Assembly (NCBI RefSeq): GCF_000337675.1
Contig: NZ_AOIB01000025.1
Coordinates: forward strand, 53,005 to 117,004
Reading direction: 5' to 3'
DNA length: 64,000 nucleotides
Source of the DNA: Natronococcus amylolyticus DSM 10524
GTDB lineage: Archaea; Halobacteriota; Halobacteria; Halobacteriales; Natrialbaceae
Positions within the stretch are counted from its first letter, which is position 1; each line of letters opens with the position of its first letter. The translations under genes were made by a program, and so were the position numbers. Positions 20,640-25,668 of this stretch are shown one piece after another. The notes below the pieces were generated by a model. That model saw only the letters and a program-made list of their open reading frames with translations, was not told the origin of the DNA and did no database searches.

Positions 20640-20798
20640 ATGTCCCCATCCGCGTTCGCCGCGATCGCCCTGCTCGGCGTCTGGGTGCTGATGATGTTCG
20701 CCGTCACCGCCGCCACCGGCGAGGATCAGCTCCGCGCCACGGCGTGGTTCGACGACTCGACCGCCGACCGTCGCGAGGGCTCGAGGCGGAAGGATTAG
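20640..20798 (+). CDS. Small single-span membrane protein between dnaG and DUF92
   Basis: 52 residues starting MSPSAFAAIALLGVWVLMMF: one N-terminal membrane helix (about 5-24) and a charged tail ending RREGSRRKD. It follows dnaG by 88 bases and its stop overlaps the stop of the convergent DUF92 gene (stop codons share two bases). I believe a short membrane ORF at this place is common in haloarchaeal genomes, but its function is unknown. Confidence 0.6.
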   Translation: MSPSAFAAIALLGVWVLMMFAVTAATGEDQLRATAWFDDSTADRREGSRRKD

Positions 20799-22120
20799 CC
20801 GAGAATCGCGAACGACAGTCCGAGCAGCGCACAGATGATCGCGCCCGACAGCGTCGCCAGAAAGTTGACGCCCTGGTTGCCCAGCAGCGGCCCCTCGAGG
20901 GTCGCCCCGAGGAGGCTGTCGACGGTCATCCCGACGAAGCCGGCCGTGACGATGATCGCCGCGCCCACGACGCCGACCTCGGCGAACAGCGCGTAGGAGA
21001 TGACCGCGACGATCGCCGCGCCGACGACGCCGGCGATCTCCCCCTGCCAGGTGACGCCGCCGTCGGTACCGGGCTCGACGGGCTCGAGCGTGGTGATCAG
21101 CCGCGGCTGTTCGAAGACGCTGCCGATCTCGCTCGAGAGGGTGTCGCTCATCGCAGTTGCGACCGAGCCGGCGAACGCGAACAGGAACAGCTCGGCGTCG
21201 ATCGGGAGGAAGGCGGCCTCGCTGGCTGCGTACCCGAGGACGGCGACGAGCCCGACGGCCGCGTTGCCGAGGACGTTGCCGGTGCCGCGGGCGCCGTTGT
21301 TGTCCTCGGCGACCCCCAGATCCTCCTTGCGGTCGTAACGGAACTTCGTCGAGAGCCCACCGATCGCGAAGAAGGAGATGAGGACGACGAACCAGCCGTA
21401 GCCGCCGAGGACGATCGTCAACAGCCCGAGCAGAACGCCGGTGAGCATGCCGGCGATCGACGCCGTCTCGAGGGCGTAGGAGGCGTAGCCGAGCGCGGCG
21501 GTGATCGCCAGCGCGATCGCGATCTCGGCGGCACCGAGGGCCGGATCGAGCTCCGCGAGCAGCCAGAGCAACAGTCCGACCGACAGCATGACGACGGGAT
21601 CGTCGTAGAGCAACAGAACGTCACGGAGGAGCGCGGCGAGCAAGGCGCCGCTGGCAGCGAGAAACAGGATCGTCGGCAGCGCGGACGGGATCGAGCCGCC
21701 GGTAACGGCGACCGTCGCCGCCTGGCCGACGACGGCCGCGACGGTCGCGATGAGACAGAACCCCGCGGCGTGGACGACGTCACTGTCGCTTCGCGTTCGG
21801 ACGAGACGCTCGCCGAAGTTCCCGTAGCCGATCAGAAACACCGTCCCGACGAATATCGCGCTCGTCATCGAGGACTGGACGGCGAGCAAGCCGAGCGCGA
21901 CGCCGGCGAGGACGAACGCGATGAGTCCGTAGAGGCGCCCGTCCTCGTAGTCGTCGGGATAGGCGAGTAGGTCGAAGATCGGTCCGTCCGTAACGGCGAC
22001 CGCTCCGAGCAGGACGACCGCGGCCAGCGCCGCCGCGATCTCGGGACCGAAGAGCGGAACGGCGAGCGAGAGCGTACACAGCAGCGCGAAGACGCCGGCT
22101 CGCCGGACGGGTTCTGTCAC
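20795..22120 (-). CDS. DUF92 membrane protein (polyprenol/phytyl-phosphate kinase-like)
   Basis: 441 residues with about eleven membrane helices. The C-terminal half is the conserved DUF92 domain: RGTGNVLGNAAVGLVA near 280, the SVATAMSDTLSSEIG segment near 320, GGVTWQGEIAG near 355 and MTVDSLLGATLEGPLLGNQGVNF near 400. The D-T-x-x-S-E-I-G and T-x-D-S-x-L-G-A-x-x-E pattern is shared with CTP-dependent dolichol and phytol kinase relatives; plant VTE6 (phytyl-phosphate kinase) belongs to this family. Inferred activity: phosphorylation of an isoprenoid alcohol or its monophosphate in the membrane. The adjacent cis-prenyltransferase genes fit that. Confidence 0.88.
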   Translation of the reverse strand: MTEPVRRAGVFALLCTLSLAVPLFGPEIAAALAAVVLLGAVAVTDGPIFDLLAYPDDYEDGRLYGLIAFVLAGVALGLLAVQSSMTSAIFVGTVFLIGYGNFGERLVRTRSDSDVVHAAGFCLIATVAAVVGQAATVAVTGGSIPSALPTILFLAASGALLAALLRDVLLLYDDPVVMLSVGLLLWLLAELDPALGAAEIAIALAITAALGYASYALETASIAGMLTGVLLGLLTIVLGGYGWFVVLISFFAIGGLSTKFRYDRKEDLGVAEDNNGARGTGNVLGNAAVGLVAVLGYAASEAAFLPIDAELFLFAFAGSVATAMSDTLSSEIGSVFEQPRLITTLEPVEPGTDGGVTWQGEIAGVVGAAIVAVISYALFAEVGVVGAAIIVTAGFVGMTVDSLLGATLEGPLLGNQGVNFLATLSGAIICALLGLSFAILG

Positions 22121-22241
22121 GGTAATCGGTCCTTTCTGTGGGGATTACTTGAACCTTCGTGAACCGGCTCGAGCCCGATTTGTGGCGGGTAGCGGGGCTG
22201 AAGCGGGCGTCTGACGGAGCCGAATCGAACCCGTAACCGGT

Positions 22242-22874
22242 ATGCCACCGGCCCGGAAACGGGAGGGCGTGGGTCTGTACGAGCGCTACCTCTCCGTTCG
22301 CATCGGTCGTCACGACGCCGACAGCCCCGACCACGTCGCGCTCGTGATCACCGAACGCGACCTGCTCGAGCGCGGGGCCTACGAGACGCTCTCGGCGTTT
22401 TTCGACTGGGCGTTCGAGTACGCTACCCGCGTGACGGTTTACGTCAGCGTCCTCGACGCCGCCGCCATCCCCGCCCTGCGGCGAGAGCTCGAGGCCGTCA
22501 ACGCCCCTCGAGAGGTCGCCGTTCGCACGCCTGACGATCCCAGCCGGGCCGACGCCGCGATCCAGATCGGGATCGGTCTCGGCGGGAAACACGAGTTTAC
22601 GAGCGCCGTGCGAACGCTGGCCGAGAGCGTCGACGCCGGCGAGCTCGAGCCCGCCGAGATCGACGACGAGCGCGTTGAGGACCACCTCGTCTTCCCCGCC
22701 GAACCCGACCTGGTGATCAAGACGGGCGCCGAACGGCTCTCGGATTTCATGATCTGGCAGTCCGTCTACTCCGAGCTCTACTTCACCGACGTCAACTGGC
22801 GGGACTTCCGCAAGCGGGACTTCCTGCGGGCGGTCCGGGAGTACTGTAACCGCTCGAGGCGGTTCGGGCGGTAG
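22242..22874 (+). CDS. Degenerate cis-prenyltransferase paralogue (UppS-like, NgBR-like layout)
   Basis: 210 residues. The C-terminal half is clearly undecaprenyl diphosphate synthase-like: PDLVIKTGAERLSDFMIWQ, SVYSELYFTDVNWRDF and RKRDFLRAVREY, ending NRSRRFGR with an RxG-type motif. The N-terminal half lacks the catalytic D-G-N-R segment and instead reads HVALVITERDLLERGAYE. This combination matches non-catalytic partner subunits such as eukaryotic NgBR. It is divergent from DUF92 and lies about 1.9 kb from a canonical UppS that has the catalytic motif but no RxG end. The start is probably ATG 22242, though a shorter N-terminus is possible. Confidence 0.82.
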   Translation: MPPARKREGVGLYERYLSVRIGRHDADSPDHVALVITERDLLERGAYETLSAFFDWAFEYATRVTVYVSVLDAAAIPALRRELEAVNAPREVAVRTPDDPSRADAAIQIGIGLGGKHEFTSAVRTLAESVDAGELEPAEIDDERVEDHLVFPAEPDLVIKTGAERLSDFMIWQSVYSELYFTDVNWRDFRKRDFLRAVREYCNRSRRFGR

Positions 22875-22896
22875 CTCGGACGGACTTCCGTCCGTC

Positions 22897-23721
22897 TCAC
22901 TCGTCGATCGCGTCGACGACCGCCTCGTCGAGCTGCTTCGCGTCGGTGAACACCCGACGGCTGAGCAGGACGGTGTTAGCGACGACGGTGAGCCCGCCGG
23001 CGGCGAACAGCATCAGCATGATTGCGAACTGGTACTGCGCGGCGTAGATCGGGTTCTCGCCGGCGATGATCATCCCCGCCATCAGCCCCGGAATCTTGAC
23101 GACGCCGAGGCTCTTGATCCCGTCGATCGTCGGGATCAGCGCCGCGTAGACGCTGGTCGAGACGTACTCGGTGACGGCCTCGTCAGGGGAGGCACCGACG
23201 CTCAACAGCGCCTCGATCTCCGCCCGGTTTGAGGCGATCTCTCCGGTGAACCGGTCGAGCGCGAGCGAGTTCGTCTGCATCGCGTTGGCGATGACCATGC
23301 TTCCGATGACCAGCAGATCCCGCATCGTCATCTCGATGGCGCCGGCGGCGGCCATCGCCACGATCGTCAGCCCCGCGCCGAACCCGATCGAGGCCAGCGA
23401 CGTCCCGAACACGCCCGGCAGCGCGGTTCCGCGCTTGTAGGAGATGTAGGCGGCGACGACGATCATAAAGGCGAGAACGACGGCCGCCCAGGCGAGATGC
23501 GCCGCCAGCAGGAGACTGATCACCGCGCCGGCGGCCACCACCTGAACCAGCCCGCGGACGGCCATTGCGACGATCTCTCGTTCGAACCCGAGCTGCCGGG
23601 CGTAGATGATCCCCAGGACGACCGCCGTCAGCGCCGCCGCGATCGCGATCTGGACGAACCCCGTGACGATAACGGGATCGGCCGCGTGTTCGAGGACCCG
23701 CTCGAGACCCGGATCGGTCAC
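22897..23721 (-). CDS. fetB: FetB/YbbM-family ABC permease (UPF0014)
   Basis: 274 residues, about six or seven membrane helices. Conserved UPF0014 features include AMAVRGLVQVVAAGAV near 50, MVIANAMQTNSLALDRF near 145, LLSVGASPDEA, and PTIDGIKSLGVVKIPGLMAGMIIAGENP near 205-235. In E. coli the FetAB pair exports iron and protects from oxidative stress; that role is only inferred here. It is the downstream partner of the ATPase at 23718, with GTGA overlap (GTG start). No substrate-binding protein is nearby, in line with an exporter. Confidence 0.88.
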   Translation of the reverse strand: MTDPGLERVLEHAADPVIVTGFVQIAIAAALTAVVLGIIYARQLGFEREIVAMAVRGLVQVVAAGAVISLLLAAHLAWAAVVLAFMIVVAAYISYKRGTALPGVFGTSLASIGFGAGLTIVAMAAAGAIEMTMRDLLVIGSMVIANAMQTNSLALDRFTGEIASNRAEIEALLSVGASPDEAVTEYVSTSVYAALIPTIDGIKSLGVVKIPGLMAGMIIAGENPIYAAQYQFAIMLMLFAAGGLTVVANTVLLSRRVFTDAKQLDEAVVDAIDE

Positions 23722-24389
23722 GCGAGGACCTCCTCGGGACGTCCCTCGGCGATCACCCGCCCGTCCTCGAACTCGGCGACGCGGTCGCCGAGGCGCTCGG
23801 CCTGGGCGGTATCGTGAGTGACCAAGACGCAGGTCAGCCCCTCCGTTCGGATCAGGTCGCCGAGGAGCTCCTCGACTCGCGCTTCCGTCTCCGAATCGAG
23901 GTGGGAGGTCGGCTCGTCGAGCAGGAGGACCTCGGGATCCACGTAGAGGGTCCGGGCGACCGCGACGCGCTGTTGCTGGCCGCCGGAGAGGTCCTCGACG
24001 TCCCGTTCTGCGGCGTTCGGTAGCTGCACCCGGTCGAGCAGCGCCGCGACGCGCTCTTCGTCGACCGGTTGGCCCCGAATCAGATCGCTCGCAGCGACGT
24101 TCTCCCGAACGGTCCCCGGCCGGAGCGCGGACTCCTGAGGAACGAGGCCGACCCGACGCCGCAGCTCCTGGGGATCGATCTCGTGGTAGTCGACGCCGTC
24201 GAGGTACACCGTTCCGTCGGTCGGTTCGTCCAGGCGGTTGAGCAGCCGCAAAAACGAGGACTTTCCAGCCCCCGAGGAGCCGACGACCGCGAGGACCGTC
24301 GACGCCGCGACGCGAAGCGAGACGTCCTCGAGGATCGGTTCACCGCCGACGACCCTCGTGAGCGACTCGGTCTCGAGCTTCGAATCCAT
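23718..24389 (-). CDS. fetA: ABC transporter ATPase (FetA-like)
   Basis: 223 residues, a single ATP-binding cassette. Walker A GSSGAGKSS at about 34-42, Q-loop LVPQESALRPG, signature LSGGQQQR, Walker B VLLLDEPTSHLD and the H-loop VLVTHDT are all present, so it should be an active ATPase. Start ATG at 24389 gives MDSKLETESL; the open frame begins nine codons earlier. It overlaps the permease start by four bases, so the two genes are coupled. It probably drives metal export. Confidence 0.9.
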   Translation of the reverse strand: MDSKLETESLTRVVGGEPILEDVSLRVAASTVLAVVGSSGAGKSSFLRLLNRLDEPTDGTVYLDGVDYHEIDPQELRRRVGLVPQESALRPGTVRENVAASDLIRGQPVDEERVAALLDRVQLPNAAERDVEDLSGGQQQRVAVARTLYVDPEVLLLDEPTSHLDSETEARVEELLGDLIRTEGLTCVLVTHDTAQAERLGDRVAEFEDGRVIAEGRPEEVLA

Positions 24390-24461
24390 CGTACGAGGAT
24401 CGCTCGGGGCGGGCAAAAGTCGCTGCGGTCGGACCGGGCGACCGGCCCGTTCGGGACGGGG

Positions 24462-24686
24462 CTACGGCTCGAGGTCGGGGTCCGGAAACTCGACGTAGGC
24501 GAACAGCGTCACGAGGATTCCGACGGTCAACAGGACGAAGCCGCCGCCGATCGCGAGAAACTCCGCGGGCTGGGTGTGGTCGGCGGCCGTCTGGGGGTGG
24601 CGAAGCACGCCGGCGCTCCCGAGGAGCAGGAACGACGCGAGCCCGATCCCCGTCGCGGCGAGTCCGACCGCGAGCTGGCGGTCCAT
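24462..24686 (-). CDS. Small two-helix membrane protein
   Basis: 74 residues from ATG 24686 (MDRQLAVGLAATGIG): membrane helices at about 4-23 and 45-65, and a short acidic tail PDPDLEP. It lies between uppS and the ABC exporter genes on the same strand, 49 bases after uppS, and may be cotranscribed. No family assigned. Confidence 0.6.
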   Translation of the reverse strand: MDRQLAVGLAATGIGLASFLLLGSAGVLRHPQTAADHTQPAEFLAIGGGFVLLTVGILVTLFAYVEFPDPDLEP

Positions 24687-24735
24687 ACCCGGCGTTGGGG
24701 CCCCGTCCGATTGTAGGTTTCGAGACACGGCGGAC

Positions 24736-25668
24736 TCAGTCCGCGGCGGGACCGCTCGAGTCGACTCCCTCGAGTTCGTCCTCGTCGGGCTGTTCGGCGG
24801 TCGGCAGCGAGTCGCGGAACCGGTCGACGATCGAGCGGGCCTCCGCGAGTTCGGGATCGCTCATCGCCCCGAGCAGGGCCAGCGCCCGGCGGGCGCGGGT
24901 TCGGCGCCAGGACTCCTGGCGGTGTTCGTACGTCCGGATCCCGCGCAGGAAGTCGGGCTTCGAGAACTCGGGCCAGTAGGGAGTACAGAAGAACACGGCG
25001 GCCTCGTTGCCGTTGGCGTGCCAGGGCAGGAAGTTCGAGGTCCGCTCGTCGCCTCCGGTTCGGATGATGAGGTCGACGTCCCGAACCGGCTCGTCGTACA
25101 GCCGGCGTTCGATCGCCTCGACGTCGATCTCCTCGGGGTCGACCTCGCCTTCCTCGACGTCTCTCGCGACCCCACGGGCTGCCTCGAGGAGCTCCGAGCG
25201 GCCGCCGTAGGCCAGCGCGATGTTGAGCACGAACCGATCGTAGTCGGCGGTTCGCTCCTCGGCGTAGTCGACGGTTTCCTGGACCCGATCGGGCAGTCGG
25301 TCGACCGCGCCGAGCGCGCGGATCTTGACGCCGTTGTCGTGGACGCGCTCGGCGTCGGCGAACTCCCGAAGCTTCTCACAGAGCAGGTCGTACAGCGCCT
25401 CGCGCTCCTCGGCCGGCCGATCGAAGTTCTCCGTCGAGAACGCGTAGAGGGTGAGTTCCTCGACGCCGACCTCCTGGCACCACTCGAGGACGTGCTCGGT
25501 CGTCTCGGCGCCCGCGCGGTGGCCGTCGGTCGCGTCCGCTCCCTGCCGGCGTGCGTACCGACGGTTCCCATCCTGAATCACGGCGACGTGGGTCGGCACA
25601 CCGTCGATCTCCCTCGAGAGGAGTTGCTCGTACGCCGCGTCCACGCGCTCACGGAGCCACCGATTCAT
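24736..25668 (-). CDS. uppS: Polyprenyl diphosphate synthase (cis-prenyltransferase, catalytic)
   Basis: 310 residues from ATG 25668. The catalytic motif HVAVIQDGNRRYARR is at about 28-42, with FSTENFDRP near 90, ALAYGGRSELLEA, and the C-terminal block DVDLIIRTGGDERTSNFLPW followed by WPEFSKPDFLRGIR. It condenses isopentenyl diphosphate in cis onto an allylic starter to make the carrier lipid for glycosylation. Unlike its partner paralogue at 22242 it has no RxG at the C-terminus, and it ends in an acidic tail. The upstream open frame lacks a convincing N-terminus. Confidence 0.93.
   Translation of the reverse strand: MNRWLRERVDAAYEQLLSREIDGVPTHVAVIQDGNRRYARRQGADATDGHRAGAETTEHVLEWCQEVGVEELTLYAFSTENFDRPAEEREALYDLLCEKLREFADAERVHDNGVKIRALGAVDRLPDRVQETVDYAEERTADYDRFVLNIALAYGGRSELLEAARGVARDVEEGEVDPEEIDVEAIERRLYDEPVRDVDLIIRTGGDERTSNFLPWHANGNEAAVFFCTPYWPEFSKPDFLRGIRTYEHRQESWRRTRARRALALLGAMSDPELAEARSIVDRFRDSLPTAEQPDEDELEGVDSSGPAAD

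Follow-up and report, generated by a model that had tools for sequence, protein, structure and literature searches.

A probable two-subunit cis-prenyltransferase encoded by two genes near DUF92 in the haloarchaeon Natronococcus amylolyticus

Two cis-prenyltransferase genes with divided motifs

We examined a 64,000-nucleotide stretch of DNA from the haloarchaeon Natronococcus amylolyticus DSM 10524, hereafter the window, whose positions are used throughout. The source genome is 99.8% complete, and a whole-genome profile search finds exactly two genes of the cis-prenyltransferase (cis-PT) family PF01255 in it, both of which lie in this window. Gene A (22242..22874, + strand) encodes a protein of 210 amino acids that, given its PF01255 match, the match of an A profile to human NUS1 and its AlphaFold fold, is a candidate non-catalytic subunit of the NgBR/Nus1 type. 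Gene B (24736..25668, - strand) encodes 310 amino acids and, based on PF01255 and a Foldseek match to DHDDS, is the putative catalytic subunit of the DHDDS type. From sequence comparisons, we consider it highly probable that A and B are the subunits of one obligate heteromeric cis-PT of the DHDDS/NgBR type.

The B protein matches the PF01255 profile over positions 1-216, which is the whole domain, with 234 bits, and the A protein matches positions 113-219 only, which is the C-terminal half, with 93.6 bits (the curated cut-off is 27 bits). All of the motifs quoted for the two proteins in the original prediction were found where it had placed them. Specifically, A carries IKTGAERLSDF, ELYFTDVNWRDF and the C-terminus RRFGR and lacks DGNR, and B carries VIQDGNRRYARR and IIRTGGDERTSNF and has a C-terminus without RxG. 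We then counted motifs in two sets of relatives, 86 A and 108 B sequences from haloarchaea and 51 A and 50 B sequences from a phylum-wide sample of 60 genomes, with positions given in Escherichia coli UppS numbering. The complementarity of the motifs, also claimed beforehand, holds in 86/86 A and 108/108 B from haloarchaea, and because it is invariant in these sequences it is not due to chance. Thus DGNR and RxG in one chain, the combination that marks a homodimeric UppS, is found neither in A nor in B.

In gene A, a remnant of the catalytic loop (LVITERDLL, 22341..22367, + strand) is recognizable from the spacing between a conserved His and a conserved Trp, and the DGNRR sequence and the next helix, about 11 residues, are deleted. 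D26, G27, N28, F70, S71 and R77 are lost in 86/86 haloarchaeal A proteins, in all of which K194, R200, S202, E213, R242 and G244 are invariant. A remnant of the isopentenyl diphosphate (IPP) site, IKTGAERLSDF, lies at 22716..22748 (+ strand), with its Lys, Arg and Ser kept in haloarchaea. The RxG motif (RFG, 22860..22868, + strand) stands one residue ahead of the stop codon and is conserved in relatives: R[FY]G plus a single residue forms the C-terminus of all 86 haloarchaeal A proteins, and the phylum-wide sample has Arg in 50 and Lys in 1 at the first position of the motif and Gly in 51/51 at the last. Two candidate features were discarded. Retention of the IPP site in A was rejected as a universal feature, since K/R194, R200 and S202 are invariant in haloarchaea only, and an exchange of E213 between A and B was set aside because the alignment is ambiguous at that position. 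The AlphaFold model of A (predicted local distance difference test, pLDDT, 82) has the cis-PT fold and matches UppS and DHDDS chains. The gene may start at a GTG at codon 10 (22269), giving 201 amino acids, because most orthologues are 201-202 amino acids long. Many genomes of one genus (g30; L199, L200 and L201) have an insertion in A near profile position 92-97, which splits the profile match and leaves the RxG end intact.

Gene B likely starts at the ATG at 25668, which gives the 310 amino acids, and not at the TTG of the longest open reading frame (ORF). Its DGNRR catalytic loop (25558..25572, - strand) is present in 108/108 haloarchaeal and 50/50 phylum-sample B proteins, and its IPP site, RTGGDERTSNF (25030..25062, - strand), includes the invariant R194, R200 and S202. 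These three residues, together with D26, G27, N28, R30, F70, S71, N74 and R77, are kept in every haloarchaeal B. R242 is replaced in all 108 (by Ser in 106), as is G244, and none of the phylum-sample B proteins has RxG. In place of this tail, AlphaFold predicts with moderate confidence a long helix and a helix-turn-helix (helices 237-268 and 272-286; 24811..24960, - strand). The equivalent of R39 is also lost from haloarchaeal B, mostly to Ala, and this loss may reflect a different allylic substrate.

Co-occurrence of A and B and the two-subunit enzyme

Co-occurrence of the two genes had been set beforehand as a check on the original prediction, and A is indeed found in virtually every genome with B. 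PF01255 matches occur in 393/394 haloarchaeal genomes, nearly always two in each. The haloarchaeal A profile likewise has a match in 393/394, and only a handful of genomes fall short of a strong A-type score. Most of the deviating genomes are incomplete, such as G384 (88% complete), which has only B, and G392 (82%), which has neither gene. In the phylum-wide sample, 55 of the 60 genomes have PF01255 genes, and nearly all of these have both A and B. One haloarchaeon (G002) also carries a 622-residue frame with a divergent third cis-PT-like sequence (L192 2914-4779, - strand; RTGDNPRRECLSGF).

A tree built from the C-terminal half that A and B have in common places all A sequences in one clade (Shimodaira-Hasegawa approximate likelihood ratio test, SH-aLRT, 96) and all B sequences in another (89); the alignment has about 109 columns and is reliable for the A/B split only. 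Each clade spans all sampled lineages of the phylum, and therefore the duplication that gave rise to A and B predates the phylum. The arrangement of the genes is also widely retained. B lies convergent and downstream of A in 76/76 haloarchaeal loci where it was found and in 23/23 phylum-sample loci that have B near A (the phylum-sample gene-order counts are drawn from 50 A loci). In many relatives the two genes are directly convergent, and the gap from stop to stop is often <100 bp.

In the mechanism that we propose, B, which has the only complete active site (the D26 loop, the allylic diphosphate site and the IPP site) and lacks the closing C-terminal RxG, would bind the allylic diphosphate and IPP. 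A, having lost its own active site, would dock through its conserved dimer-forming C-terminal half, and its RxG-X-COOH tail would cross the interface and complete the active site of B. The product would be a long polyprenyl diphosphate, from which a polyprenyl or dolichyl phosphate glycan carrier, the lipid that takes sugars to the cell surface, would be made. Physical interaction between A and B, activity, chain length and use of the product are what we infer from these comparisons. In the human cis-PT, the RxG of NgBR uses backbone atoms to bind the phosphate in the IPP site, and the single residue after it contacts, through its carboxylate, two arginines of DHDDS that bind farnesyl diphosphate (FPP) (PMC7573591).

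A precedent exists among methanogens of the same phylum. According to a passage in PMC8131916 that cites Emi 2019, MM_0618/MM_1083 of Methanosarcina mazei is a heteromeric cis-PT with C45-50 products for glycan carriers. Like A and B, it is an archaeal cis-PT made of two paralogues; unlike it, the pair described here is haloarchaeal, convergent and located beside DUF92. Two families of the phylum have third paralogues with a TLGG end, of the type seen in the M. mazei protein MM_0014 (L176 2991-3647, + strand, and L190). L176 is an MM_0014 orthologue as judged by its PDB match (272-277 bits), and a genome that carries an MM_0014 orthologue has, besides this copy, only one A and two B. Because only A and B remain in that genome, MM_0618/MM_1083 should, by exclusion, be the A and B orthologues.

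Several observations weigh against an obligate heteromer. Inter-protein mutual information with average product correction (MI-APC), computed for 123 pairs of A and B, was not enriched where the interface is expected, but with an effective number of sequences (Neff) of about 49 they are too few and too closely related for this result to be informative. A and B are not adjacent in some lineages (e.g., G006), and one genome that is 99% complete in 120 contigs (G072) has A with B undetected, which is perhaps an assembly gap and otherwise a real loss. Finally, not every cis-PT has a strict need for RxG. MM_0014, a PF01255 paralogue of the same phylum that we see only as an extra copy, has TLGG in place of RxG, needs no partner for its activity and prenylates alcohols (PMC8131916).

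This activity of MM_0014 despite its missing RxG lends some credence to an alternative in which B is active alone as a homodimer without RxG, and A, a paralogue that has diverged, serves another purpose, for instance in regulation or in binding another phosphate. The invariance of K194, R200 and S202 in haloarchaeal A is compatible with this alternative, since it could mean that A still binds phosphate. However, the conserved core of A consists of the dimer-forming half and the RxG tail, and nearly all genomes keep A together with B. Moreover, the C-terminal helices that replace RxG in B follow the DHDDS pattern, which is reported to be incompatible with tail exchange in a homodimer (PMC7573591). 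We therefore regard an independent B homodimer as very unlikely. The heteromer that had been predicted is instead strongly supported: the genes co-occur, their motifs are invariant and complementary, their anatomy is NgBR-like in A and DHDDS-like in B, and a heteromer has been reported from M. mazei.

DUF92 and other neighbouring genes

As had been claimed, a DUF92 gene is divergent from A. It encodes a membrane protein (20795..22120, - strand) that belongs to the family PF01940 (203 bits) and is a conserved neighbour of A. Judging from the ORF coordinates, the two genes are separated by a 121-bp intergenic region (22121..22241), which presumably holds the promoters of both. DUF92 is divergent and upstream of A in 76/77 haloarchaeal loci and in 27/27 other loci that have DUF92 near A. 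Between A and B lies a further pair of genes for a UPF0014 permease and an ABC ATPase (FetAB/YbbLM-like; 22897-24416, - strand).

Plant VTE6 is a member of the DUF92 family. The enzyme is named in the literature as a phytyl-phosphate kinase. Given the conserved linkage, the DUF92 protein could be a polyprenol or polyprenyl-phosphate kinase that acts downstream of the cis-PT, a tentative assignment that we rate a little below even. The competing explanation, which concerns the kinase assignment only, is that DUF92 acts outside this pathway and is adjacent to A through inherited gene order, and we give it an even chance. DUF92 is present in 60/60 genomes of the phylum-wide sample, almost always as a single copy, including five without a detectable cis-PT. 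Furthermore, it is not beside A in several families, and a Pfam search of the DUF92 protein returned no match to a kinase family at E<=10. What speaks against mere inheritance is that the divergent DUF92-A pair persists outside haloarchaea too, in several separate families of the phylum, and that VTE6, a family member from plants, is a phytyl-phosphate kinase. Functional orthologues of dolichol kinase have been questioned for most prokaryotes (PMC5088576).

The five genomes belong to one family (f18; G400, G409, G418, G427 and G434; 75-91% complete), and neither the PF01255 family profile nor the B profile finds a PF01255 gene in them. Co-loss of DUF92 with the cis-PT genes was tested and not found, as DUF92 persists in this family.

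Relation to the human DHDDS/NgBR enzyme

The catalytic subunits of the human DHDDS/NgBR (NUS1) and yeast Rer2/Nus1 enzymes resemble B in having DGNR, an N-terminal helix and C-terminal helices and in lacking RxG. Human NgBR, like A, is an inactive partner whose catalytic loop is deleted and whose chain ends in RxG-X-COOH. Unlike NgBR/Nus1, A has no visible N-terminal membrane anchor in its 210 amino acids, and haloarchaeal A keeps the Lys, Arg and Ser of the IPP site. Bacterial homodimeric UppS shares its fold and catalytic residues with B and its RxG with A, but it has all motifs in one chain, whereas A and B divide them over two genes.

For B, the likeness to DHDDS is seen in both structure and sequence. 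The top Foldseek match of its AlphaFold model (pLDDT 74) is human DHDDS (7pax_A, E 4e-20), in an alignment of 311 columns compared with about 225-235 for UppS. This alignment takes in the N-terminal helix and the C-terminal helices, which are absent from bacterial UppS. The best PDB match of a phylum-wide B profile is likewise DHDDS, at 245 bits, with UppS at 230.

For A, NUS1 is not among the top 50 Foldseek matches of the model, and its likeness to NgBR therefore rests on sequence profiles and a shared deletion. Positions 20-212 of a phylum-wide A profile align with residues 24-213 of the 213 in NUS1, that is, to the last residue (E 4e-11, 47 bits); the corresponding B profile matches NUS1 over the C-terminal half only (E 1e-6). 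A single A sequence, from a genome with an MM_0014 orthologue, also matches NUS1 over its full length (E 2e-5), which B of this genome does not. When the N-terminal half of A is used alone, DHDDS and NUS1 (E 0.0015) come ahead of any bacterial enzyme. The conserved His and Trp are spaced 36 apart in B, DHDDS and UppS. In NUS1 the spacing is 23, and in A it is 25 in 81/81 haloarchaeal sequences and 23-25 in most others. Because this spacing is short in both, the same catalytic segment of 11-13 residues is gone from A and NUS1. Profile coverage and the shared deletion favour common descent of A and NgBR.

These similarities raise the possibility that the eukaryotic two-subunit dolichol/polyprenol synthase is of archaeal descent, with NgBR/Nus1 derived from an A-type and DHDDS from a B-type protein of a pair that in archaea acts jointly with a DUF92 polyprenol(-phosphate) kinase from the adjacent gene. 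This proposal leans on sequence features shared by A and NgBR, namely the same loop deletion, the same RxG-X-COOH end and end-to-end similarity, and we hold it as tentative, somewhat short of an even prospect. Convergence, in which A and B still form one enzyme, A lost its activity independently of NgBR and the likeness stems only from the common cis-PT fold and an identical mechanical answer, comes close to an even chance; it bears on the evolutionary reading only. The similarity of NUS1 to A is weak in absolute terms, at 47 bits, and the Foldseek matches of A are led by UppS and DHDDS. In addition, the haloarchaeal profiles rank in the opposite order, with B (39 bits) scoring higher than A (21 bits) against NUS1. 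However, the phylum-wide profiles place A above B with end-to-end coverage, the N-terminal half of A puts DHDDS and NUS1 first, and A and NUS1 have the same loop deletion.

Published work presents heteromeric cis-PTs as characteristic of eukaryotes and of the synthesis of long chains (PMC7839719, PMC7573591). The split design was thus already known from eukaryotes and from one methanogen as the reported archaeal case, and we found no description of the haloarchaeal pair in the open literature (subscription journals lay outside the search). What is new is the phylum-wide reach of the pair, its conserved linkage to DUF92 and the evidence for a possible archaeal origin of NgBR-type subunits. Now that the split enzyme, NgBR-like subunit included, has been traced to nearly all genomes of one archaeal phylum, the origin of human DHDDS/NgBR becomes testable. 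In Haloferax volcanii and other model haloarchaea, work on glycan-carrier synthesis can focus on the A/B pair, and the conserved DUF92 neighbour offers a concrete candidate for the kinase step.

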